The notes beneath the pieces are model-generated. The model did not search any database. It was not told where the DNA came from and saw only the letters and a list, made by a program, of their open reading frames with translations. Below, in pieces: positions 1,995-17,446 of a DNA stretch of 34,278 nucleotides (positions are counted from its first letter, which is position 1; each line of letters opens with the position of its first letter). The translations under genes were made by a program, and so were the position numbers. Location: NCBI GenBank assembly GCA_023261135.1, contig JALRJP010000004.1, positions 1-34,278 of the forward strand. Direction: 5' to 3'. The DNA is from Burkholderiaceae bacterium (lineage in GTDB: Bacteria > Pseudomonadota > Gammaproteobacteria > Burkholderiales > Burkholderiaceae_A).

Positions 1995-2771
1995 ATGGCA
2001 TCGAACACCACCGAGACGGTCACCAGCGTGACCCATTGGAACGACACACTTTTCTCCTTTACAACAACGCGTGAGTCGGCTTTTCGATTTCGTAATGGGC
2101 ATTTTGTAATGATTGGCCTTGAAGTCGAAGGCAAGCCACTGATGCGCGCCTACAGTGTCGTGAGCCCCAATTACGAGGAGCAGCTTGAGTTCTTATCCAT
2201 TAAGGTGCCCGATGGGCCACTGACATCGCGTCTTCAGCATATCAAGGTCGGTGACAGTTTACTGGTGGGCCAAAAGGCGACGGGAACCTTGGTTCTTGAC
2301 GATCTTCGTCCTGGAAGACATCTCTACCTTTTCTCAACAGGTACAGGGCTTGCCCCGTTCATGAGTATTGTTCGTGATCCTGAAACCTATGAGCGCTTTG
2401 AGAAAGTTGTGCTCATTCATGGTGTGAGGCTGGTAAGTGAGCTGGCTTACTCGAACTACCTTACGAAGGAATTACCCGTGCACGAGTTTCTTGGTGACAT
2501 GGTTCGCGATCAGCTTATTTATTACCCTACGGTAACCCGTGAGGCGTTCACGCATACCGGTCGCTTAACAACAGCAATAGAGTCAGGCAAACTTTTTGAA
2601 GATATTGGGCTGCCTATGCTTGACGCCCCGGTTGACCGCGCCATGATCTGCGGAAGCCCTTCCATGCTAAAAGAGACTGCCGAGATGCTTGATCAACGGG
2701 GCTTTCAGGTCTCTCCGGGGCTTGGCCAGCCGGGGGATTACCTTATTGAACGGGCCTTTGTTGAGCGATAA
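1995..2771 (+). CDS. fpr: Ferredoxin--NADP+ reductase (FAD-dependent)
   Basis: A 258-residue soluble flavoenzyme of the bacterial Fpr type, which moves electrons between NADPH and ferredoxin or flavodoxin in the cytoplasm. The FAD-binding RAYSVVSPN (51-59) and the NADP-binding STGTGLAPF (114-122) are plain, followed by VVLIHGVR and a C-terminal aromatic near the end (ERAFVER), as in subclass-I bacterial reductases. The length is typical. AAGGA lies 11 bases before the ATG. The 3' end probably overlaps the start of chrA, implying translational coupling. A role in oxidative-stress defence is known for some Fpr proteins; here it is only inferred. Confidence 0.93.
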   Translation: MASNTTETVTSVTHWNDTLFSFTTTRESAFRFRNGHFVMIGLEVEGKPLMRAYSVVSPNYEEQLEFLSIKVPDGPLTSRLQHIKVGDSLLVGQKATGTLVLDDLRPGRHLYLFSTGTGLAPFMSIVRDPETYERFEKVVLIHGVRLVSELAYSNYLTKELPVHEFLGDMVRDQLIYYPTVTREAFTHTGRLTTAIESGKLFEDIGLPMLDAPVDRAMICGSPSMLKETAEMLDQRGFQVSPGLGQPGDYLIERAFVER

Positions 2772-4086
2772 CCACGCCCAGTCTGGTCCGTCCTCTTCGC
2801 CGCCTGGTCCGCAGGACGGGTTTTCTGTAGCACAGGACGGTCTGCAGATCTCGGTTTGGACAGTCTTTCGTGTTTTCCTCAAACTGGGGCTAACTTCCTT
2901 CGGTGGTCCTGTTGCCCATCTGGGTTACTTTCGTAACGAGTTCGTTGAGCGCCGCAAGTGGTTCGGCGACCAGGCCTATGCGCAGCTTGTTGCCTTATGT
3001 CAGTTTCTGCCAGGTCCATCGAGCAGCCAAGTGGGCATGGGGATTGGGCTGGCAAAGGCGGGTTACGCGGGTTGTCTGGCCGCCTGGATAGGGTTCACGC
3101 TGCCTTCGACAATCGCCATGATTCTAATCGGGCTTGGCCATAGTCTTTTGAATCAGGGCCTGGCCTACGGGCTGCTTTCTGGCATTAAGCTTGTTGTTGT
3201 GGCTGTCGTAGCTCATGCCCTATGGGGTATGGCCAGATCGCTTTGCCCCGACAACCCACGTGCCACTATTGCAGGCCTTGTAGCTGCCTTCATGCTTAGC
3301 GCAGGCAGCGGCCTTGGTATCTGGGGACAGCTCGTGGCGGTTCTCCTTGCGGGTTTTGCCGGCTGGGGGTTGCGGTTGGGCAGGTCTGAGGCTACTGCGG
3401 TGTCGAATACCTGTGAAGGTCTTGAATTCCAGACTCGGCAAGTGAATGGCGCTGCGGGGCTCTTCTGGCTGGGTCTTTTTACCTTGCTTTTAACAGGACT
3501 GCCTTTGTTGAATTGGTGGACGGACGGTGAGTTCCTCGTGCGGCTTGCCGATGCTTACTTTCGAGCCGGTGCCATGGTCTTTGGCGGTGGGCATGTTGTT
3601 CTGCCCGTTCTACAGTCTCAAGTGGTTACCCCGGGATGGGTATCAAACGAATCGTTTCTTCTGGGATACGGAGCTGCCCAGGCCATGCCTGGTCCTTTGT
3701 TCGCCTTCGCGGGTTTTCTTGGAGCTGCAACATCAGTCCCTGCTGGCCTCGTTGAGAATTTTAGTTCCCCTTGGGCCATGATCTCGCTGGGTCTGTTCGC
3801 GCTCTTTTTTATCTTTCTACCTTCGTTCTTGCTGCTCGCTGGCAGCCTGCCTTTTTGGCAAAGCATTCAGCGGCTACCGTCACTTCAGTCTGTGTTTCAA
3901 GGTGTGAATGCCGCTGTGGTTGGTCTTTTATTTGCGGCGTTTTACGACCCAGTGCTTACTACTGCAGTGACCTGGTCGCTGGATCTCGCAATCTCACTCT
4001 TATTTTTTCTTGCTTTGGTTTACTGGAAATGGCCAGCCTGGTTGGTTGTTGCCTTCGGCGGTTTGGTGGGCGTCGCGTTTCTTTGA
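2758..4086 (+). CDS. chrA: Chromate transporter, two-domain ChrA family
   Basis: A polytopic membrane protein of about 440 residues with the duplicated CHR architecture. The first copy begins at FLKLGLTSFGGPVAHLGYF, continues through the FLPGPSSSQ loop; the second begins near FRAGAMVFGGGHVVLPVL with the matching loop QAMPGPLFAF. ChrA-type proteins export chromate, probably by proton antiport; native substrates of many members are unknown. The start is uncertain: there is no ATG or GTG near the N-terminus, and the frame is open upstream to 2689. TTG at 2758 or 2761 would overlap the fpr stop at 2769-2771; TTG at 2746 or 2689 are alternatives. The overlap implies coupling to fpr. Family confident; start and physiological substrate are not. 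Confidence 0.86.
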   Translation: MLSDNHAQSGPSSSPPGPQDGFSVAQDGLQISVWTVFRVFLKLGLTSFGGPVAHLGYFRNEFVERRKWFGDQAYAQLVALCQFLPGPSSSQVGMGIGLAKAGYAGCLAAWIGFTLPSTIAMILIGLGHSLLNQGLAYGLLSGIKLVVVAVVAHALWGMARSLCPDNPRATIAGLVAAFMLSAGSGLGIWGQLVAVLLAGFAGWGLRLGRSEATAVSNTCEGLEFQTRQVNGAAGLFWLGLFTLLLTGLPLLNWWTDGEFLVRLADAYFRAGAMVFGGGHVVLPVLQSQVVTPGWVSNESFLLGYGAAQAMPGPLFAFAGFLGAATSVPAGLVENFSSPWAMISLGLFALFFIFLPSFLLLAGSLPFWQSIQRLPSLQSVFQGVNAAVVGLLFAAFYDPVLTTAVTWSLDLAISLLFFLALVYWKWPAWLVVAFGGLVGVAFL

Positions 4087-4442: not shown

Positions 4443-4925
4443 ATGCTGTCAACCAACTACATCACACCAACAGGCTATCGGCGACTGCTGGCGGAAATGC
4501 AGCAACTTATTACCGTCGAGAGACCTGCCGTTACCGAGACTGTCCGTTGGGCTGCCTCCAACGGTGATCGGTCTGAAAACGGTGACTACATTTATGGAAA
4601 ACGACGACTACGCGAGATTGACCGGCGTATTCGTTTTCTTACAAAGCGACTCGAAATCGCACAGGTCGTTGACCCCGCTATTCACAAGGGTAGTGACCAG
4701 ATCTTCTTCGGGGCTACCGTTGTCTATTTGCGAAACGACAGTGCAGAGGAGACGGTTCGTATTGTTGGTCAAGACGAGGTTGACCCTGGGCGTCGCTGGG
4801 TGAGTTGGGTTTCGCCGATTGCAAGGGTTCTTATTAAAGCGCGGGAGGGAGATCGTCTTCAGCTTAGGACTCCCTCGGGTTCTGACTCCATTGAGGTGTT
4901 ATCGGTGTCTTATTGCGATGAATAA
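4443..4925 (+). CDS. greB: Transcription elongation factor GreB
   Basis: A 160-residue GreA/GreB family protein, which enters the RNA polymerase secondary channel and stimulates cleavage of the backtracked transcript. The N-terminal coiled coil carries the acidic tip in NGDRSENGDY (Asp42, Glu45, Asp48), and the basic stretch GKRRLREIDRRIRFLTKRLE after it is typical of GreB rather than GreA. The C-terminal FKBP-like domain includes WVSPIARVLI. The ATG at 4443 is immediately preceded by an AT-rich region without a strong Shine-Dalgarno. Its last 62 bases overlap the 3' end of the convergent SDR-like gene. Confidence 0.93.
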   Translation: MLSTNYITPTGYRRLLAEMQQLITVERPAVTETVRWAASNGDRSENGDYIYGKRRLREIDRRIRFLTKRLEIAQVVDPAIHKGSDQIFFGATVVYLRNDSAEETVRIVGQDEVDPGRRWVSWVSPIARVLIKAREGDRLQLRTPSGSDSIEVLSVSYCDE

Positions 4926-5931
4926 CCTCTTCTGTAGTGGGATGGCGCAGGGTTGCGCGGAGCTCTGTTGTTAAGCGTTGCGATATAACCTGACGAGAAT
5001 CACGCATGAAGCTCGCCATCATTGGGCTAACCGTTCCTTTCTTTATTTCGGTTCGCAGTTCCTCACGTGAGACACGAACAGGAAGAGGAAGCCCCTTGGT
5101 CTTTGCAACAAGATCGAAGTAGTCAGCCATTTTGAGCCGAGAGTTATTCACCGCATTGAAGACCCGGCCAGGTCGCCCGCGAAATAGACTTAGCCAGGCC
5201 AGACGTGCTAGATCCTCAGCATGAATGTGGTTAACCCAGACGTCGTCGTCTGCACGCAGGGCAGGCGCCCGTTGTTTAAGACGTTCAATGGGCAGGCGGT
5301 CTTCCGCAATAATGCCCGGCGCCCGAAGCACAGAAAAGCCAAGGCCCCGCCAGTACCCCTCTGCAGAGAGTCGCCGAACAGACCGAGGCTCTGTCGCTCT
5401 ACAAATTGACGTCTCATCTACCTCGTTTCCTTGATAGTCGCCGTAAACACCCGTGGTACTAACATAGACGCCACGGCTTCTTATAGGTGCTCTTTCAGAA
5501 TCACTTGAGAACGGTCTTAGTCTTCTGCGTCGAATAGCCAGGCTTAGCCTCTTTGATCGTCGGTCAATATTGCCGATGCCGCTGACGGTCAGACCTGTGA
5601 CCGAGCCCGTATCTTGAGGGGGCATGAGAACCAGCCAATGGGTAATTACGCGTGCAAGGCGTCGTTGGTCTTCTGGGCGGTCAAGGTCCCAGCCAAGAAC
5701 GGGACAGTTTCGCGCGGAGAGTCCTTTGCGGGCTTTGCGATCCCGGCTAAGAAGCCAGGGATCCTCGGTTGTTGGTGCGAACCGTCGTGCAACCCCTAAG
5801 AGTCGAAAGGCCAGTTGGCCAGACCTTGCCGATGCAGACTCTAGCTGTTGGCGTACAAGACGTTTACCGACATCGCCCAGACCTACAATGCCAATGCGCG
5901 GAGCGCGAAACCTACGGGGAAGAGCATGCAT
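4864..5931 (-). CDS. SDR-like NAD(P)-binding protein (YeeZ/epimerase type)
   Basis: A 355-residue protein with a Rossmann fold. The dinucleotide loop GIVGLGDVG is at 14-22, and the extended-SDR-like STTGVYGD is at 158-165, followed by GNEVDE and VNHIHAEDLARLAWL. This pattern matches the NAD-dependent epimerase/dehydratase superfamily, including E. coli YeeZ-like proteins of unknown substrate. The region between residues 55 and 155 is unusually arginine-rich (RRSKRLSLAIRRRRLRP). No canonical YxxxK pair is evident, so catalysis is uncertain. The start ATG at 5931 has no strong RBS. The C-terminus overlaps greB by 62 bases. It lies just beyond the cytochrome c terminator, so it needs its own promoter. 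Confidence 0.75.
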   Translation of the reverse strand: MHALPRRFRAPRIGIVGLGDVGKRLVRQQLESASARSGQLAFRLLGVARRFAPTTEDPWLLSRDRKARKGLSARNCPVLGWDLDRPEDQRRLARVITHWLVLMPPQDTGSVTGLTVSGIGNIDRRSKRLSLAIRRRRLRPFSSDSERAPIRSRGVYVSTTGVYGDYQGNEVDETSICRATEPRSVRRLSAEGYWRGLGFSVLRAPGIIAEDRLPIERLKQRAPALRADDDVWVNHIHAEDLARLAWLSLFRGRPGRVFNAVNNSRLKMADYFDLVAKTKGLPLPVRVSREELRTEIKKGTVSPMMASFMRDSRQVISQRLTTELRATLRHPTTEEVIHRNKTPITPQWSQNPRES

Positions 5932-8363: not shown

Positions 8364-9281
8364 ATGACTGCTGTTTTCGTCCATCCTCAGTTCGATCCTA
8401 TCGCTATCAGCCTTGGACCTTTGGCCCTTCACTGGTATGGCTTGATGTACCTGCTGGCTTTCGTCTCCTTTTACTTGCTGGGCCGCCTGCAAATTCAGCG
8501 GGACAGACAAGCCTCGGGTATGACCATGCGTGACTTGGAAGATATGTTGGTCTACGGCGTTCTTGGTGTCGTGATTGGGGGACGACTTGGTTATGTCTTT
8601 TTTTATCAACCTGGTTATTTCTTCGACCATCCTTTAGAGGCACTGGCGCTTTGGCAGGGAGGTATGGCCTTTCATGGGGGCTTGATGGGCGTGATTTTTG
8701 CCATGCTTCTTTTCTCGGCGCGAAGGGTGCACCTGGGTCAGCCGGTAATGCTCAATGACGAGGGAAGTCCCGTTATTAAGCGCAAGCTCTCTTTCGGTCA
8801 AAGATTCTGGGCGCTTGCTGACTTCGTTGCTCCCCTGGTGCCTCTTGGCCTTGCCTTTGGGCGGCTTGGTAATTTCATAAACGGGGAGCTCTGGGGTCGT
8901 CCGACCGATCCCAATGTCATTCCATGGGCAATGATTTTTCCGCAGTCTGGTTCGGACCTTGCCCGCCACCCCTCGCAGATCTACCAGCTTCTTGGAGAAG
9001 GCCTCCTTTTGTTTGCCTTGCTCTTTATCCTTAGCCTTAAGCCGCAAAAACGAGGGGTCCTTGCAAGTGGCTTTTTGTTGGGCTACGGCGTTTTTCGATT
9101 CCTTGCCGAGTTTGGTCGAGAACCGGATGCCTTTCTTGGCCTGTTAGCCGTGCTCGAGCCATTAGGCCTTGAGGCGAGCCTGTCCATGGGCCAGTGGCTA
9201 TGCATCCCCATGATGATTCTTGGCTGTCTGAGCCTCTACGTTGCCACGCGTTCAACGCCGTCCGAGCCCACGACTCGGTAG
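8364..9281 (+). CDS. lgt: Phosphatidylglycerol--prolipoprotein diacylglyceryl transferase
   Basis: A 305-residue polytopic inner-membrane enzyme. Lgt transfers diacylglycerol from phosphatidylglycerol to the lipobox cysteine of prolipoproteins, the first step of lipoprotein maturation. The hallmark sequences are [12 protein letters not shown] and [20 protein letters not shown], the Lgt signature. Hydrophobic segments cover the N-terminus ([15 protein letters not shown]) and the C-terminal helices. The loop [20 protein letters not shown] is longer than usual but the overall length is near the family's upper range. BamE, encoded in this window, is a predicted lipoprotein and so a likely client. 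A stem-loop with a T-run follows the gene. Confidence 0.95.
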
Positions 9282-9440: not shown

Positions 9441-10751
9441 ATGTTCGAGAGGTTCCGTTCCGGCCGCAGTCAAGGTCAAAACGAGCGCGCGCTCAAGGCC
9501 TTGCTGTCCAGTTGCGATCGTCTTATCAGCGAGGCTGGTGAGTCTGTCGGGCTTGAGATTGCTCGACAGATATTTCAAGCCTATGCCGACCTAAACCCGG
9601 AACTTAAAACGGAGTTTTTTAAGGCCATTGCGTCGGGTTTTAACCCCGACCCTGTTGCTGTTGAACAGGCGGCGAAACGCTATGCGCAGTCGCAAGACCC
9701 CACCGACCTTATTGCGATGGTCGATGCGGCACATCCCCCTCGTCAGGAATTGTTTCGTCGACTGAATCGTGTTCCCGAGGGCTGTGCAGCGCTTGTGAAG
9801 ATGCGCGAGGCTTTGTTGCAGAGCCTCGTCAAAGAGCGTGGCCTTAAGGCAGTGGACTCCGACCTAGAACATCTCTTAGCCTCTTGGTTTAACCCTGGCT
9901 TTTTAAGGCTTGAGCGAATCAGTTGGGAGTCGCCGGCCGGTCTGCTTGAGCAAATTATTCAACACGAGGCGGTCCATGAAATTGATGGATGGGGTGATTT
10001 GCGGCGGCGACTTGAGCCCGATCGACGTTTGTTTGCGTTCTTCCATCCCGCCCTACCGAAGGAGCCGCTTATTTTTGTTGAGGTGGCGTTGCTTCATGAA
10101 ATTCCAGGGTCCATTGCGCCCTTGCTCGATCGTAAATCAATGCCAGAACCCTCTACCAAGCCCTACAAGGTTGCAGCGTTTTACTCCATTTCAAACTGCC
10201 AGCCCGGCCTCAAAGGTGTGCATCTCGGCAATTTTCTTATTAAGCAAGTGGCGGAGGCCTTGAAGGCGGAGTTCCCTGACATCCGTCAGTTCTGCACCCT
10301 TTCTCCTGTGCCCGGATTCGTCCGTTGGCTACTCGCCAACGAGCCTTTCGACAGAGAAGCCTTCGCTGAAAAAGTATGGCTTCGTCTTGAAGATCGTCGC
10401 AGGCAGGTCATGGCGCGCGCGCAGTCTATGTCGGCTGCCTCCGATTTTGCTCGCCTTGCTCAGGACGAAGACTTGCGGCCTAGTATCTTGTCGCTTGCGG
10501 CAGCATTTCTAGGGCATGTCTCTGCCTCTGCGCGTCGGGCGGATCCGGTGGCACGTTTTCATTTGCATAACGGTGCCCGTCTTGAGCGAATTAACGACCA
10601 GGCCGATCTCTCGGTGAAGGGCCTCAAGCAGTCTTTAGGGCTCATGGTTAACTATCTCTACGACCTTCCTACTATCGAGCAAAATCACGACGCCTTTCTT
10701 CGTGGGGAGATTATTCGTTCTAAGTCCGTGGCTGACCTGATCACCCGATGA
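9441..10751 (+). CDS. matA: Malonyl-CoA decarboxylase
   Basis: A 436-residue MCD-family protein, which decarboxylates malonyl-CoA to acetyl-CoA and CO2. It has the family layout: a helical N-terminal domain and a GNAT-like catalytic domain. FCTLSPVPGFVRWL (about 283-296) contains the conserved catalytic serine region, and FHLHNGARLERIN (about 372-384) the conserved histidine. The ATG at 9441 follows AGGGAG. The stop overlaps the start of the next gene by 4 bases (ATGA), so translation is coupled. With matB downstream it forms a route from free malonate to acetyl-CoA. Some MCDs also accept methylmalonyl-CoA; that is not shown here. Confidence 0.92.
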   Translation: MFERFRSGRSQGQNERALKALLSSCDRLISEAGESVGLEIARQIFQAYADLNPELKTEFFKAIASGFNPDPVAVEQAAKRYAQSQDPTDLIAMVDAAHPPRQELFRRLNRVPEGCAALVKMREALLQSLVKERGLKAVDSDLEHLLASWFNPGFLRLERISWESPAGLLEQIIQHEAVHEIDGWGDLRRRLEPDRRLFAFFHPALPKEPLIFVEVALLHEIPGSIAPLLDRKSMPEPSTKPYKVAAFYSISNCQPGLKGVHLGNFLIKQVAEALKAEFPDIRQFCTLSPVPGFVRWLLANEPFDREAFAEKVWLRLEDRRRQVMARAQSMSAASDFARLAQDEDLRPSILSLAAAFLGHVSASARRADPVARFHLHNGARLERINDQADLSVKGLKQSLGLMVNYLYDLPTIEQNHDAFLRGEIIRSKSVADLITR

Positions 10752-11602
10752 ATGACCGACAATCTTCCCCGAGTCAGCCAAGCGTAGGTCGAGATTCGTC
10801 CGAGCCTAACGCGGGCCGCGTCTGGTGCAGTCGCACGGCGGCTGGGGATGTTGCCACCGTTTGGCTCTCGCATCCGGGTCGGCTGAATGCGCTATCGGCA
10901 GGTATGTGGAAGGCCTTGGCAGAGATTTTTACTGAGCTCGCCGCCGAAGAGCTCTTGCGTGCAGCTGTTATTCGTGGTGAAGGTGGTGCATTTGCCTCCG
11001 GGGCAGATATTACCGAATTCGCGCAGCTGCATAGCAGCCGTGACCAGGTGCGCCACTACCACGACACAATTCTTGGTGATGGGCTGCGCGCTGTCCTTAA
11101 CTGCCCTGTGCCTGTCATTGCGGCCATAGACGGCCCTTGTGTAGGCGGGGGGCTAGAAATTGCCTCTGCCTGTGACTTGCGTATCGCGAGTCGCCGGTCA
11201 AGCTTTGGCGTGCCGATCGGTCGGCTTGGTTTTCCCATTGCACCTATTGAAGCCGCCTGCGTCGTGGAGCTTATTGGCCGCGCCAACGCTCTAGAACTTT
11301 TACTCGAGGGACGTATTTGGACCTCTGACGAGGCCTATGCGAAGGGCCTAATTAACCGACTGGTGGACGACAACGACTGGGAGCGTGAGCTTGAGGCAAC
11401 CCTTCAACGCGTCTGTAGTTGCGCTCCCCATGCCTCGCGTCGAAGCAAATGGATTATTCGGCAATTAACCACCATTGATGATCGTCAGAAACTCTCTCAG
11501 GGTCAGCGGGAGGCCTGTTGGGACTTTGCTGACACGAGGGATTATGCTAAAGGCTTGGATGCATTTTTAACCAAGACACGACCTCAGTTCAAGAACGACT
11601 AG
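10748..11602 (+). CDS. Crotonase-fold (enoyl-CoA hydratase/isomerase family) protein
   Basis: A 284-residue member of the crotonase superfamily. The oxyanion-hole loops are present: SGADI (84-88) and DGPCVGGGLEIASACDLRIA (128-147). Glu137 matches the first catalytic glutamate of classical crotonase (Glu144 in the rat enzyme). The second (Glu164 in rat, within a PE pair) is replaced: the protein reads FGVPIGRLG, with Ile157 there. It is therefore probably not a standard enoyl-CoA hydratase; superfamily relatives include (methyl)malonyl-CoA decarboxylases and isomerases. It starts inside the malonyl-CoA decarboxylase stop codon and lies 69 bases before matB, so a role with malonyl-type thioesters is suggested by context only. 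Confidence 0.85.
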   Translation: MNDRQSSPSQPSVGRDSSEPNAGRVWCSRTAAGDVATVWLSHPGRLNALSAGMWKALAEIFTELAAEELLRAAVIRGEGGAFASGADITEFAQLHSSRDQVRHYHDTILGDGLRAVLNCPVPVIAAIDGPCVGGGLEIASACDLRIASRRSSFGVPIGRLGFPIAPIEAACVVELIGRANALELLLEGRIWTSDEAYAKGLINRLVDDNDWERELEATLQRVCSCAPHASRRSKWIIRQLTTIDDRQKLSQGQREACWDFADTRDYAKGLDAFLTKTRPQFKND

Positions 11603-11671
11603 ATTCGTTAGAGTTTCGTCTGCTCCTGCAACGGCAGGGTCTGTGGCCTTGGGTCTTTTTGAGTGGAAGTT

Positions 11672-13306
11672 ATGACAACAAGCCCCCAAGCTTTTTCTGA
11701 TAGTCGTTCGACGGTCTCGGCCGAAATCAAGCAGCTTCTTCAAGCGCGCTCCTCTGCCCAGGGCTTGAAGAATCTGTACACCGAGTTGATGCGCAAGGCT
11801 AACCCCCAAAAAATTGCCATTCGCACACTTCAAGGGCTGAATTACAGTTATCACGATCTTGCCGCGGCAAGCGCCCGTATGGCTCACTACATTGCCTCGC
11901 TGGGGCTTAAGCAAGGCAGCCGGGTGGCTGCCCGGGTTGAGAAGTCTCCTGAGGCTCTTATGCTTTACTTGGCCTGTCTTCGTTCAGGGATGGTCTTTCT
12001 GCCCTTAAATACGGGCTATCAGTCCGAGGAGCTGCGATATTTTTTCAACGATGCCAAGCCGGGGTTAGTGGTCTGTGATCCATCTGCACTTAGCTGGATT
12101 AAGCCTCTGGCCGAGGCCTCGGGATGCTCTTATGTTGAGACCTTAGGCAGCGATATCACCGGTAGTCTGCTTGATAAATCAGCCCCTTTCGCCGATGACT
12201 TTTCAACCATAGCCTGTGGTCCTGATGCGCTTGCAGCTATTCTTTATACCTCCGGCACCACGGGGCGTAGCAAGGGGGCCATGCTTACCCATGCAAACCT
12301 CGCTTCCAATGCGCTTGTTCTTCATCATGCGTGGCGTTGGCAAGAAGACGACGTCCTGATTCATGCCTTACCTATCTTTCATGTGCATGGACTTTTTGTG
12401 GCTATTCATGGTGCCCTATGGGCAGGTGCTCAGATGGTCTGGATGTCGAAGTTCGATCCGGCCGCAGTCATTAAGGAGGCTGCAACGGCCACAGTCCTTA
12501 TGGGTGTGCCTACCTTCTATGTGCGTCTGGTTGAGTCGGGGCTGCTTAGCGCTAAGGGTGTCAAGAACATGAGGCTCTTTATTTCAGGCTCGGCCCCCTT
12601 GTTAGCCGAAACGCATCAAGCCTTCACGAAGCTCACCGGACACGCCATCCTTGAGCGCTACGGTATGTCGGAGACCGTCATGTTGACCTCAAACCCCTAC
12701 GACGGCGATCGGCGAGCGGGAACGGTAGGCTTCGCGTTGCCCTCGGTCGAACTGCGTCTTGTCGATGACCAAGGTCATTCCATTTCCGTAACGCCGGGTC
12801 AGGAGTCTGCAATTGGAGGAGTTCAGGTAAGGGGACCGAATGTTTTTGTTGGCTACTGGAATATGCCAGAGAAGACTAAAGAAGAGTTTGCGCCAGGGGG
12901 GTGGTTTAAGACCGGGGATATGGGACAGTTTGCGGCCGATGGCTATTTAGTGCTTGTGGGTCGAAGTAAAGACCTCATCATTTCGGGCGGCTACAACGTT
13001 TACCCCAAAGAAATTGAGCTCCTGCTCGATGACCAACCTGAGGTGTATGAGTCCGCCGTTATTGGGCTCTCTCATCCCGATTTCGGTGAGGCGGTGGCGG
13101 CGGTTGTCGTTCCAGATCCCCCAGAGTCGGCAGTCAAAATGGGCAGTCAAGATGAAGCGCAGTTGCTCTCGCGGCTTCGATCGATGATTGCAAGCTTTAA
13201 GCTGCCCAAACGCCTCTTTTTCTTGCAGGAGTTACCTCGCAACGCCATGGGTAAGGTTCAAAAAAACCTATTGCGTGAGCAGTTTTCTTCCACGTTCAAG
13301 AGTTAA
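11672..13306 (+). CDS. matB: Malonyl-CoA synthetase (MatB-type AMP-forming ligase)
   Basis: An ANL-superfamily acyl-CoA synthetase of 544 residues. The phosphate-binding loop LYTSGTTGRSKGAMLTHANL, the ALPIFHVHGLF segment, ERYGMSETVMLTSNPYDGD, GWFKTGDMG, the hinge GRSKDLIISGGYNVYPKEIE and the C-terminal lysine in NAMGKVQKNLL are all visible. The ERYGMSE motif followed by NPYDGDRRAGTVG is typical of MatB, which makes malonyl-CoA (and often methylmalonyl-CoA) from the free diacid. Proximity to malonyl-CoA decarboxylase supports this. ATG at 11672 is preferred over an in-frame GTG at 11663. No malonate carrier is encoded in the operon; a TSUP permease lies convergent just downstream. Confidence 0.9.
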   Translation: MTTSPQAFSDSRSTVSAEIKQLLQARSSAQGLKNLYTELMRKANPQKIAIRTLQGLNYSYHDLAAASARMAHYIASLGLKQGSRVAARVEKSPEALMLYLACLRSGMVFLPLNTGYQSEELRYFFNDAKPGLVVCDPSALSWIKPLAEASGCSYVETLGSDITGSLLDKSAPFADDFSTIACGPDALAAILYTSGTTGRSKGAMLTHANLASNALVLHHAWRWQEDDVLIHALPIFHVHGLFVAIHGALWAGAQMVWMSKFDPAAVIKEAATATVLMGVPTFYVRLVESGLLSAKGVKNMRLFISGSAPLLAETHQAFTKLTGHAILERYGMSETVMLTSNPYDGDRRAGTVGFALPSVELRLVDDQGHSISVTPGQESAIGGVQVRGPNVFVGYWNMPEKTKEEFAPGGWFKTGDMGQFAADGYLVLVGRSKDLIISGGYNVYPKEIELLLDDQPEVYESAVIGLSHPDFGEAVAAVVVPDPPESAVKMGSQDEAQLLSRLRSMIASFKLPKRLFFLQELPRNAMGKVQKNLLREQFSSTFKS

Positions 13307-13389: not shown

Positions 13390-14196
13390 CTAAAAGGCTC
13401 TTGTAAACATGTAGGTTGCAAGAAAAAACAAGAAATAGGCAAACAGTCGACGAAGAGAGTCGACATTGAGTGTGTGCGCAACTTTTGCTCCGAAGGGCGC
13501 TGTTGAACCGGCGCCAATCACTAAAATAATAAGGGCGGGCAAATAAATGTAGCCAATGGAGCCACCTGGCAGGCCGGTTACATCCCATCCGCTAATCGCA
13601 TACCCAATAAGGCCACCAAGTGCAATGGGAAACCCCATGCCTGCAGAGATACCAAGCGCTGTATGCAGTTTTACATTGCACCAGGTTAAGAAGGGAACTG
13701 TGATGAAACCCCCGCCTGCACCTAAGAGTGCACTCATGAAGCCAATGCCCGAGCCCACTAGTCCAAGACCTCGCGGAGATGGCGTCTCTCGACCCGGCTT
13801 GGGTTTCTTGCCACGCAACATCGATAGGGCGGAGTAGCCGACAAAGGCCGCGAATAACGCAGCAAGCACAGTACCTTTGAGCATACCCGCAAAGTTTGCC
13901 CCTACGAAAGTCCCAAGGAATGCGCCAAGTCCCATGGGCTTCAGGATGGCCATGTCGACCGCGCCCCTCTTGAAGTGCGCGCGCGTGCTCGAGAGCGAAG
14001 TAAATAAAATGGTGGTGAGCGAGGTCGCAATGGCGACCTTAATCGCAAGGTCGACCTCAACCCCTTGGCTAGAGAAAAGCATGGTCATGAAGGGGACCAT
14101 GGACATGCCACCGCCAATCCCCAGCAGGCCCGCAAGAAATCCCGTTGCAGCACCAAGCACGACAAGAGAAAAAACGGTCAGAAGATCCAAGTCCAT
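13390..14196 (-). CDS. TSUP (TauE/SafE) family membrane transporter
   Basis: A 268-residue, mostly hydrophobic protein with two related halves, each with a glycine-rich GxLGxGGG motif: GFLAGLLGIGGGMSMVPFM near the N-terminus and FMSALLGAGGGFITVPFL at about residue 155. This duplication defines the TSUP family of anion carriers, whose known substrates include sulfite, sulfoacetate and other small organic anions. It starts 25 bases after zapA on the same strand and may be read from that promoter. Its 3' end faces matB across 83 bases. Substrate unknown; malonate is a guess from position only. Confidence 0.87.
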   Translation of the reverse strand: MDLDLLTVFSLVVLGAATGFLAGLLGIGGGMSMVPFMTMLFSSQGVEVDLAIKVAIATSLTTILFTSLSSTRAHFKRGAVDMAILKPMGLGAFLGTFVGANFAGMLKGTVLAALFAAFVGYSALSMLRGKKPKPGRETPSPRGLGLVGSGIGFMSALLGAGGGFITVPFLTWCNVKLHTALGISAGMGFPIALGGLIGYAISGWDVTGLPGGSIGYIYLPALIILVIGAGSTAPFGAKVAHTLNVDSLRRLFAYFLFFLATYMFTRAF

Positions 14197-14839: not shown

Positions 14840-17446
14840 ATGACTCTTATGAAGCAGCAGCGCTTGGCTCTTCCTTGGCTCTCTTGGTGTCTGCAAGACC
14901 TTGGACATTTTGTGATTCTTATTGCGCTGGCGACTGTCATGCAGGGGCTCTGGGCCCAGTCCTTGCAGAGCCCAGCCTCCTCGCAGCTTCAGCCCGTGAG
15001 TCCCAACGCTGCCGATTCCGGGCTTCTGTCTCGGCTAACTCGGTCTGGAGCCTCTTCGAGTTTATCGGGCGACCCAACATCACTTCAGGCTATTCCTGGG
15101 CCCGTTGAAACCGATGAGGTCAGAGCCAGTCTTGTTTTCTCAAGTCGAGAGCTGATTTTGGGGCAGCCTTTTGAAGTTGGTCTCAGGCTTAGTCATGCTC
15201 CCCTCTGGCATACCTATTGGGTGAACCCGGGTGACTCGGGGCTGCCGACAGACTTTGAGCTTAATCTCCTTGATTCCTCCGGGGCACGTCTGCCGGTGCC
15301 TCTTCAGGCCATTCAATGGCCTGCGCCGCATAGGCTACCCGTCGGTCCCCTTGCTAGTTATGGTTTTGAAGGGGATTTGCTGCTTGTAAGGACTGCCGAA
15401 TTGCCGAGTGCCCTTGCTCGGGCTAATACGGCGCAGCCAAATTTTGTTGCCCAGGCCCTTGAGCTTCAGGCCAATTGGCTGGTCTGCAAAGATGTCTGCA
15501 TTCCCGGTGATGCACGTTTTGTCATTCCCTTAACGCAGGGGTCCATGCAAGGCGATGGGGCTACTGGACATGCGAACGCCACGGCGCTCGTTCTCGATGC
15601 CTCTGCAAGTCGTGTTGACAGTCAGGCGCTTGATCAGGCTAAGGAAGACCTTCCGGTGCTTGCTCCCAAGCCACTGGCCTACGCCCTGTCAAACGAGGGT
15701 AACAAGCTCCTTGTCTTTGGTGATGACCCTGTCCAGGCCGTCGAAGGCGGTTATTTATTCCTTGAGCTCGAGGGCCTGGTTCAGCCTGCCGCGGCTCAGG
15801 CTCTGTACCGGTCGTCGGCGGGGGGCTTCTGGCTTGAGGTCCCCTTGGGGGGATCGTCCGCTCGACTCCTGCAAGGCTTAAAGTCAAAGCCCACACCACT
15901 TTTCGCCGTTTTTCGTCCTCAGAACTCCAATGCAGAGCCGGTGCGTTGGAGGCTCTTACCTGTTCCACGGGGGGCCTTTCAGGGTCTTGCCTCAGAGCCG
16001 GGTTTGTATCAGGGACCTGTGCCTGAACGTGGGCCTATGTTTAGTGCGGGGATGACTGCCGAGCAGACCTATCAGGCCATCAAGCTTTCGAAGTCTACTG
16101 GCCAAGCTTCAGGCCTTGGTCTCGGCCTGGCCTTTCTCTTGGCATTGGTTGGGGGTCTGCTGCTTAATCTCATGCCATGTGTTTTTCCGGTACTCGGGCT
16201 CAAGCTTCTGGCACTGAGTCAGCATGCTCAGTCACCGGCTCATGCAAGGCGCCATGCCTTATTTTTTACCGCGGGCGTGCTGGTCTCCATGTTGGCCCTT
16301 GCTACGGTCTTGCTCGGACTAAGGGCTGCGGGAGAGGTCATCGGCTGGGGCTTCCAGCTTCAGAACCCCTTTGTTGTCATGGGGCTTGCACTTCTTTTTG
16401 TCGGCATGGCATTGAATTTTTTCGGGCTCTACGAATTGGGGCTTGGACTGGCCAGAGTGGGCTCACAGGCCGAGCTCGGCCTGAAGGGCTCCAGCGATTC
16501 TGGGGCCTTTGGTTCGGGTGTACTTGCCGTCATTGTCGCCTCGCCTTGCACGGCCCCTTTTATGGGTTCGGCTCTGGGTTTTGCCGTTTCTGCAGCCCAT
16601 TGGTCTTCAGGTCTTTTCGTGTTTCTGGGCCTTGGGCTTGGGCTTGCATTGCCGTTTCTTGTGCTGGCCTTTGTTCCTGGTGGTGCGCGTCTTCTGCCTC
16701 GGCCAGGAGCCTGGATGCAGACCTTTCGTCAGTTCCTGGGCTTTCCCATGCTTGCAACTGCCGCCTGGCTTGTCTGGGTGCTCGTTCAGCAGCAGGGTGC
16801 CGACGCCGGCCTTGGCTCGCTTATGGCGCTTGTTCTCCTCTCTTTTGCGCTATGGCTCTTTGGGCGCAGGCAGGCCGCCGTCTTGCAGTCCAAGCTTCCA
16901 TCGGGTCTTGGTCGTTTCCTAAGCCCGGCCTTTATTCTCATTAGCCTTGTTCTAGTGGCTTATCTTGTGGCCTTGGTTGCGGGACAACGACCAGTGGCAA
17001 CGCCTTCGGGGTCAGCGGTCATAGGCCCGGTAGTTAGTGAGTCTCTCGGGGGGACGCCAGAAAGCGAAAAGGCGCTTGGCTCTGAAATATCCCTTTCTGC
17101 GATCGCCTGGCGACCGGGCCTTCCTCAAGAGCTGGCTTCTCAGGGCAAGGTGGTTTTTGTGGACTTCACCGCGGCCTGGTGTATTAGCTGTCAGGCGAAT
17201 AAGGCTAGGGTTCTGAATCGAGGTGAGGTAGCAGAACGGCTGGGTTCAAGTGGCTATCAGTTGCTTGTTGCCGACTGGACGCGTCAAGACCCTGTCATTA
17301 CCGCAGAGCTGAACCGTCATGGTCGCTCGGGTGTTCCGCTGTATCTGGTTTATGGCCCTGCGCTTGCGCAGCCTTTGCTTCTAAGCGAATGGCTAACCGA
17401 GGACGAGGTCGTTAACGCCTTTGAACAGGTACGGGCGGCTCGGTAA
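14840..17446 (+). CDS. dsbD: Thiol:disulfide interchange protein DsbD, long ScsB-like form
   Basis: An 868-residue inner-membrane reductase, longer than E. coli DsbD (about 565). It passes electrons from cytoplasmic thioredoxin to periplasmic thiol proteins. Order: signal peptide (1-40); enlarged periplasmic N-domain with Cys216 and Cys220 in WLVCKDVCIP; eight-helix membrane core with reactive cysteines in LNLMPCVFPVLGLK (about 446) and VASPCTAPFMGSALG (about 570); C-terminal thioredoxin domain with WCISC (about 780-784). The large N-domain and its CxxxC resemble ScsB-type DsbD relatives. ATG at 14840 or 14849 are both possible. It is divergent from the coiled-coil/zapA genes, and its last 35 bases overlap convergent exbD. 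Confidence 0.92.
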   Translation: MTLMKQQRLALPWLSWCLQDLGHFVILIALATVMQGLWAQSLQSPASSQLQPVSPNAADSGLLSRLTRSGASSSLSGDPTSLQAIPGPVETDEVRASLVFSSRELILGQPFEVGLRLSHAPLWHTYWVNPGDSGLPTDFELNLLDSSGARLPVPLQAIQWPAPHRLPVGPLASYGFEGDLLLVRTAELPSALARANTAQPNFVAQALELQANWLVCKDVCIPGDARFVIPLTQGSMQGDGATGHANATALVLDASASRVDSQALDQAKEDLPVLAPKPLAYALSNEGNKLLVFGDDPVQAVEGGYLFLELEGLVQPAAAQALYRSSAGGFWLEVPLGGSSARLLQGLKSKPTPLFAVFRPQNSNAEPVRWRLLPVPRGAFQGLASEPGLYQGPVPERGPMFSAGMTAEQTYQAIKLSKSTGQASGLGLGLAFLLALVGGLLLNLMPCVFPVLGLKLLALSQHAQSPAHARRHALFFTAGVLVSMLALATVLLGLRAAGEVIGWGFQLQNPFVVMGLALLFVGMALNFFGLYELGLGLARVGSQAELGLKGSSDSGAFGSGVLAVIVASPCTAPFMGSALGFAVSAAHWSSGLFVFLGLGLGLALPFLVLAFVPGGARLLPRPGAWMQTFRQFLGFPMLATAAWLVWVLVQQQGADAGLGSLMALVLLSFALWLFGRRQAAVLQSKLPSGLGRFLSPAFILISLVLVAYLVALVAGQRPVATPSGSAVIGPVVSESLGGTPESEKALGSEISLSAIAWRPGLPQELASQGKVVFVDFTAAWCISCQANKARVLNRGEVAERLGSSGYQLLVADWTRQDPVITAELNRHGRSGVPLYLVYGPALAQPLLLSEWLTEDEVVNAFEQVRAAR

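Follow-up and report, generated by a model that had tools for sequence, protein, structure and literature searches.

A Crotonase-Fold Protein Encoded Between Malonyl-CoA Decarboxylase and MatB in a Burkholderiaceae Bacterium Lacks the Second Catalytic Glutamate and Is a Possible Partner of MatB

Introduction

Classical enoyl-coenzyme A (CoA) hydratases use two catalytic glutamates, Glu144 and Glu164 in the numbering of the rat enzyme. The crotonase-fold protein that is the subject of this report is encoded in a stretch of 34,278 nucleotides from a Burkholderiaceae bacterium (GenBank assembly GCA_023261135.1, contig JALRJP010000004.1), termed the window in the following, in which its gene stands between those for malonyl-CoA decarboxylase (MCD) and the malonyl-CoA synthetase MatB. 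It retains the first glutamate and carries an isoleucine at the site of the second, a trait that marks a whole subfamily of crotonases in which another glutamate, E168 in the window protein, is conserved 11 residues downstream. Within this subfamily, the members encoded beside matB or the MCD gene group in one well-supported clade, which we call the malonate clade. The reading that we favor, tentatively and with somewhat less than even confidence, is that the protein may be a partner of MatB, most likely a decarboxylase, with malonyl- or alkylmalonyl-CoA as its substrate, as far as can be judged from sequence comparison.

The assignment has consequences for annotation and beyond, as the nearest profiles name the protein an enoyl-CoA hydratase, whereas all subfamily rows lack one of the two residues that define such an enzyme. 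Should the members of the malonate clade decarboxylate malonyl- or methylmalonyl-CoA, this would explain how MatB could serve catabolism in Paucimonas lemoignei and other bacteria in which no MCD was detected, it would add a non-homologous malonyl-CoA decarboxylase to those described, and it would offer metabolic engineers a new handle on the malonyl-CoA pool. If the enzyme is a hydrolase instead, it would be a valve that sets this pool, and in either case the current annotation would be misleading. Among the open-licence papers listed in literature searches, none had a title or opening part of an abstract that described a crotonase of mcd-matB operons, and a literature search for the locus tag H16_A2979 returned no match. 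According to the accessible part of one study, malonate supported growth of neither the parent strain nor the mcd mutant, which left the role uncertain (PMC6572756).

Residues and Fold of the Crotonase

The crotonase gene (10748–11602, forward strand) is an open reading frame translated into 284 residues that score 137.9 bits against PF00378. Its AlphaFold2 model has a predicted local distance difference test score (pLDDT) of 93.6 and aligns over residues 23–284 with PDB entry 4k2n, the best match in sequence and fold among the PDB chains compared (E 3.8e-62, Z 36.3, root-mean-square deviation 1.3 Å, 43% identity). The motif GGGLE spans residues 133–137 and ends with E137 (codon 11156–11158), which lies opposite E113 of ScpB and E109 of PaaF and thus represents the retained Glu144 site, as the preliminary description had stated. 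The motif VPIGRLG, part of FGVPIGRLG, spans residues 155–161 and places I157 (codon 11216–11218) at the Glu164 site. A MAFFT alignment with the Escherichia coli references, gap-free around the site, sets I157 opposite PaaF E129, CaiD E131, ScpB P133, PaaG F136, and MenB G156, and in phmmer alignments to solved structures it stands opposite the glutamate of FGQPE in the Trypanosoma cruzi enoyl-CoA hydratase 9qwv, again in a gap-free stretch, and opposite an isoleucine in 4k2n. The isoleucine reported earlier for this site is thereby confirmed, and the finding named in advance as fatal to that reading, another acid at the Glu164 position, did not turn up: no acid aligned at residue 157 in the alignments to structures, relatives, or E. 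coli references, the nearest newly conserved acid being E168 (codon 11249–11251). By alignment, the Glu164 site of the window crotonase carries no acid.

In the model, I157 is part of a short helix (156–160), and E168 is the third residue, in the first turn, of the helix 166–187. The first oxyanion-hole position is probably A86 (codon 11003–11005), as residue 85 lies opposite ScpB G65 and residue 86 hence opposite H66, and the second one is probably G134 (codon 11147–11149), opposite ScpB G110. H105 (codon 11060–11062) belongs to a YH motif in the model helix 98–117. The nearest NCBIfam profile, PRK06127 (NF004781), is named enoyl-CoA hydratase and is matched with 193.1 bits, under its cut-off of 291. 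By residues and score, the protein belongs to the crotonase superfamily and there to the subfamily described below, and it is neither a two-glutamate enoyl-CoA hydratase nor a member of PRK06127 nor a ScpB-type enzyme.

A Subfamily With a Glutamate at Position 168

Relatives were gathered by similarity into 132 rows, comprising 41 of 52 matches in genomes of the order, other loci of the window's family, and 80 of at least 590 matching stretches; genomes, loci, and families are designated G, L, and f in the following. The 11 order-genome matches that were left out were mostly weaker ones, among them that of G049, which was added later as L206. Counts refer to 131 rows including the window, with L137 omitted (it occupies the same place as L055) and with L052 and L122, identical in the aligned part, both counted. 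A glutamate at the Glu164 site is missing in 112 of these 131 rows. We define as PI-type those rows with PI, PV, PA, or PT at positions 156–157 and at least 150 bits, so that the lack of the second glutamate is true of them by definition; this applies to 90 rows (PI 73, PV 14, PA 2, PT 1). Both glutamates are retained in the 19 PE-type rows, and the remaining 22 rows also lack the second-site glutamate.

The PI- and PE-type rows differ at position 168. It is a glutamate in 89 of the 90 PI-type rows (alanine in the other one) vs. none of the PE-type rows (glycine in 17, alanine in 2), so that the absence of Glu164 accompanies a new glutamate 11 residues downstream; among the 22 remaining rows three have it (L159, L163, and L174), and one row of this group, L160, shows PI at the second site yet a glycine at 168. 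The first glutamate is present in 88 PI-type rows, the other two having a leucine. In the window's own family none of the 17 orthologue rows, the window included, has a glutamate at the second site (Ile 14, Val 1, Ala 1, Thr 1). The preliminary description had said that the protein has lost this residue: the absence stands, while the notion of a private event does not, since the trait marks the entire PI-type subfamily, and from the sequences compared the absence is ancestral to an old subfamily. A recent point mutation, a frameshift, or a sequencing slip in the draft genome was considered as well and is ruled out by the family rows, including those of G203 and G205, which at 84–85% identity also have an isoleucine.

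Two PI-type proteins of group f11, encoded at about 4992–5735 of L063 and about 5085–5849 of L071, have the leucine at the first-glutamate site and a glutamate at window position 164 (LGLVE and LGLTE, respectively), apparently a second relocation of the acid. In one scan of viral contigs no viral relatives were found.

The Malonate Clade and Its Gene Linkage

The window, 128 relatives, and five E. coli references, 134 rows in all, were used for the tree, from which L137, L105, and the partial L154 were left out. It contains a malonate clade of 28 rows with labels of 100/97 (bootstrap/Shimodaira–Hasegawa-like approximate likelihood ratio test, SH-aLRT) and with 97 in a quick tree with SH-aLRT only, from which the branch lengths were taken. 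Neighbors were counted on the same strand within 4 kb and above bit-score floors; the full 4 kb on either side were available for 67 of 90 PI-type, 12 of 19 PE-type, and 17 of 22 remaining rows, and the PE-type control is small. By this fixed rule, MatB or MCD neighbors occur in the tree only within the clade, which includes all 21 rows with MatB, and no PE-type or remaining row has such a neighbor. The phylogeny that had been proposed as a check places the matB- and MCD-linked crotonases together. The 28 rows have as neighbors MatB and MCD (11), MatB (10), a class III CoA-transferase and MCD (3), a class III CoA-transferase (2), MCD only (1; L117, where the contig ends within matB), or none of these (1; L104).

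Most PI-type tree rows (60 of 88) lie outside the malonate clade. None of these 60 has a MatB or MCD neighbor by the rule, and 28 have a CoA-transferase; over all 90 PI-type rows, a class III CoA-transferase is a neighbor in 33. The histidine corresponding to H105 is found in 28 of 28 clade rows vs. 16 of the 60. Looser associations outside the clade include an MCD farther away or on the opposite strand (L142, L144, and L148), a distant MatB-like match of 152 bits, under the score floor (L175), and matB about 4–6 kb off in G010 and G048 (rows L063 and L068) or about 10 kb off in G092, which is not in the tree. L206 (G049, f49), also not in the tree, fits the clade pattern with GAGVE, PI, E168, and H105.

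The linkage within the clade is seen in at least four of the coded families (f1, f3, f4, and f31), in f3 through MCD and the CoA-transferase and not through matB. It is also seen in named genomes of Noviherbaspirillum, Paucimonas, Bordetella, and Cupriavidus, which may belong to some of the coded families. Since the window's own family supplies 16 of the 28 clade rows, independent evidence of the spread comes from f3, f4, f31, and the named loci, plus L206. The existence of a large subfamily mostly outside the malonate clade, the conserved E168, and the lack of MCD in some genomes with crotonase and matB had not been foreseen in the preliminary description.

Operon Variants and Distribution in Genomes

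In the window the MCD gene (9441–10751, forward strand, 436 amino acids) and the crotonase gene share four bases, ATGA, the TGA stop codon of the former lying at 10749–10751 and the ATG of the latter at 10748–10750. This geometry of translational coupling, described before, is confirmed, and matB follows on the same strand, ending at 13306, with an ATG at 11672 as a likelier start than the listed GTG at 11663. Its product scores 763.7 bits against NF005702, above the cut-off of 558. The MCD contains both Pfam domains (PF05292, 312.1 bits; PF17408, 92.6 bits) together with S288 in the motif TLSPVPGF and H374 in the motif FHLHNGA, which we take, by motif and not by alignment, to be the counterparts of the catalytic serine 329 and histidine 423. 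Ser329 and His423 are given as catalytic residues of MCD in the accessible part of PMC3701320.

The order lgt-MCD-crotonase-matB is found in the window and six family-mates, the matB of one (G205) being cut by the contig end. Variants of this frame are lgt-MCD-TctC-crotonase-matB (L206), lgt-MCD-TctC-matB (L209, from the same family as L206), MCD-TctC-matB (L207), lgt-MCD-DctPQM-matB (L208), lgt-crotonase-matB (in the own family and in L118; in L119 with an M48 peptidase gene ahead of matB), and MCD-TctC-crotonase-class III CoA-transferase (L045, L049, and L051). The last of these would apparently be an ATP-free malonate module with the CoA-transferase in place of matB. Malonate is the likely substrate of the route because in relatives uptake genes for TctC or DctPQM share one frame with MCD and matB, and the designation as a malonate operon thus seems well chosen. 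Beside matB, both the crotonase and MCD are optional.

Among 26 genomes of the family, matB (NF005702) was detected in 15, the crotonase (E ≤ 1e-40) in 17, MCD in 10, accD in 25, and methylmalonyl-CoA mutase in 5, the latter without a match in the window's own draft genome. The crotonase is present in all 15 genomes with matB, and MatB is present in 16 of the 17 genomes with the crotonase, counting G205. G204 (83% complete; locus L104) is the one family member with a crotonase whose locus lacks matB, and the genome search detected none elsewhere either. Its locus reads ilvD-lgt-crotonase-TauE, with matB and MCD missing, and its crotonase has diverged (LGMPTGRLGLPL, PT at the second-glutamate site, branch length 0.62), which would fit decay once matB had been lost. 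In G184 (estimated 99% complete), G108 (98%), G147 (97%), and G200 (91%), lgt-crotonase-matB is kept and no MCD was found, nor was one found in G206, G208, G210, and G204, which are only 75–83% complete. A hidden Mdc-type malonate decarboxylase in the MCD-less family genomes was ruled out with the MdcA profile, which matched in 0 of 26. Paucimonas lemoignei has no match to MCD and no full match to MdcA, only a partial one of 26.5 bits. G211 has MCD, with matB and crotonase not found, and the third genus (eight genomes) has none of the three.

In 200 genomes of the order, the window's included, MCD occurs in 29 of 43 genomes with a crotonase (any match at E ≤ 1e-40) vs. 19 of 157 without one (Fisher p 2.4e-12), and MatB in 22 of 43 vs. 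28 of 157 (Fisher p 3.7e-5). Little weight is given to this co-occurrence because the genomes are related, larger ones hold more genes, and the crotonase list is wider than the malonate clade.

Neighboring Genes

The lgt gene (8364–9281, forward strand; TIGR00544, 236 bits) flanks the crotonase locus upstream in several families. Convergent with matB is a gene for a TauE/SafE permease (13390–14196, reverse strand; PF01925, 170.3 bits), and such permease genes also adjoin MCD in L112 (3916–4650) and the crotonase in L104 (4324–5169). The permease is a candidate transport partner of the locus, for malonate or a sulfonate. Close to the operon lies a gene of the chromate efflux transporter family (2689–4086, forward strand; TIGR00937, 283.6 bits), followed by an open reading frame for 355 amino acids (4864–5931, reverse strand) for which a Pfam and NCBIfam scan at E ≤ 0.001 gave no match. 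Downstream, 14840–17446 (forward strand) encodes a DsbD-like protein of 868 amino acids with PF11412, PF02683, and PF13899 that scores under the PRK00293 cut-off.

Proposed Function and Alternative Explanations

An enzyme that decarboxylates a malonyl-thioester needs an oxyanion hole, a non-polar site that takes the carboxylate, and a source of protons for the enolate. MatB forms malonyl-CoA and, with its loose specificity, methylmalonyl-CoA. On the favored reading the crotonase would most likely strip CO2 from both products: the backbone oxyanion hole of A86 and G134 would bind the thioester carbonyl, the carboxylate would point to a hydrophobic pocket left by the loss of Glu164, and water or an acid such as E137 would return a proton to the enolate. 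Stabilization of an enolate in the oxyanion hole is described for the crotonase superfamily in the accessible part of PMC1431709. The absence of Glu164 would presumably take away a negative charge that repels the carboxylate, and the likeness to ScpB, which also keeps the first and lacks the second glutamate, favors decarboxylation without proving it. An enzyme of this kind may back up MCD where both occur, clear alkylmalonyl-CoA, and replace MCD where the latter is absent. The (methyl)malonyl-CoA role suggested in the preliminary description is partly supported, namely by the tie of the clade to matB and MCD and by the ScpB-like glutamate pattern; membership of the ScpB type is not supported.

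Several observations weigh against a decarboxylase that works with MatB. The window operon has an MCD of its own that looks intact, and a second malonyl-CoA decarboxylase would therefore be redundant for malonate itself. In G064 and G209 MCD is encoded elsewhere than beside crotonase and matB (in the latter genome as two pieces at contig ends), so that a locus without MCD need not mean a cell without it, and Noviherbaspirillum aerium, without an MCD match, has a full MdcA (981 bits) and is therefore not counted as lacking malonate decarboxylation. Presence and absence were moreover read largely from draft genomes, many of them in 20–300 contigs. MatB does not require the crotonase, since among 50 genomes of the order with MatB eight have MCD without the crotonase (E ≤ 1e-40) and 20 have neither. 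At the residue level, ScpB His66 and Tyr140, which we take to be functional residues, the former in the oxyanion hole, are replaced by A86 and I164 in the window protein. Furthermore, the conserved E168 suggests a retained acid-base chemistry that a plain decarboxylase would not need, and the pairing of PI-type proteins with class III CoA-transferases recalls, by analogy, CaiB and CaiD, whose crotonase is a hydratase.

The last two points lead to the strongest alternative, to which we assign roughly one chance in three: E168 would be a relocated second acid, and the enzyme a hydratase or dehydratase, or a hydrolase of CoA-esters, for example a malonyl-CoA hydrolase that tunes the malonate/malonyl-CoA pool. 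It draws on the nearly invariant glutamate of the PI-type rows, which no PE-type row shares, and on the frequent placement of PI-type genes beside those for class III CoA-transferases, much as CaiD shares the cai operon with CaiB. Nearby positions belong to the active site elsewhere, according to the accessible parts of two papers: G172 of rat crotonase, eight residues past E164, is listed in the Catalytic Site Atlas (PMC4922564), and the Gly149–Gly150 peptide of DmdD, 8–9 residues downstream of Glu141, flips in complexes of the E121A enzyme and takes up the space of the Glu121 side chain (PMC3660561). The same source reports that DmdD E141A retains only weak hydration and no hydrolysis (PMC3660561), which speaks against this alternative. 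Also against it, E168 lies 11 residues on, in the first turn of its helix in the model, and malonyl-CoA offers no double bond for hydration.

The favored MatB partnership can also be put in a bolder form, which we consider unlikely as a whole, at about one chance in four: the protein would be a crotonase-fold malonyl-CoA decarboxylase, unrelated to MCD with its GCN5-related N-acetyltransferase (GNAT) fold, that stands beside MCD in part of the malonate operons, takes its place in others, and uses E168 as a relocated glutamate in lieu of Glu164. The clade would then act downstream of either of two unrelated activating enzymes, MatB and a class III CoA-transferase.

Less probable still, with perhaps one chance in six, is a role in clean-up only, in which the protein would be a decarboxylase specific for methyl- or ethylmalonyl-CoA like animal ECHDC1; it would dispose of what MatB or acetyl-CoA carboxylase form as side products and would be inactive on malonyl-CoA. 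ECHDC1 does not appear among the 50 PDB chains listed in the structural comparison, an absence without weight for or against this role. Such an enzyme would account for the coexistence with MCD, its residue pattern would be that of ScpB, and accD is present in nearly all family genomes. By itself, however, it leaves the retention of crotonase and matB without MCD unexplained, and as methylmalonyl-CoA mutase is so rarely matched in the family, one source of methylmalonyl-CoA seems to be lacking. That the gene encodes a general enoyl-CoA hydratase-like protein which stands in the operon by chance, without a malonate function, is improbable: the name of the nearest profile and the absence of the gene from the malonate operons L207, L208, L209, and L210 (picked because these genomes lack the crotonase) would agree with it, and it is disfavored by the linkage throughout the clade, by the near-constant company of MatB in the family, and by the missing glutamate at the Glu164 site.

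Comparison With Known Systems

The closest solved structure, 4k2n from Magnetospirillum magneticum, annotated as "enoyl-CoA hydratase/carnithine racemase", shares with the window protein the second-site motif type (FGVPINKIS), GGGLE, and a glutamate at the position of E168, and differs from the malonate clade by a gap opposite H105 in the alignment. E. coli ScpB (YgfG), annotated as methylmalonyl-CoA decarboxylase, has the crotonase fold and the same glutamate pattern; unlike the window protein it has Gly144 where the latter has E168, it is encoded in an operon with a mutase rather than with matB, and it forms a long branch outside the PI-type clade. Canonical hydratases (PaaF and the 19 PE-type rows as well as, from the papers, rat crotonase and DmdD) share the fold, the oxyanion hole, and the first glutamate, and they differ by the second glutamate and by a glycine or alanine in place of E168. 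The carnitine module CaiB/CaiD resembles many PI-type relatives in the pairing with a class III CoA-transferase, whereas CaiD keeps both glutamates (E111 and E131) and the partner in the window is a member of an ATP-dependent ligase family. Finally, the malonate operons of the lgt-MCD-TctC-matB and MCD-TctC-matB type (L209 and L207) have their backbone in common with the window, and the window-type operon is set apart from them by the additional crotonase and, in some genomes, by the lack of MCD.

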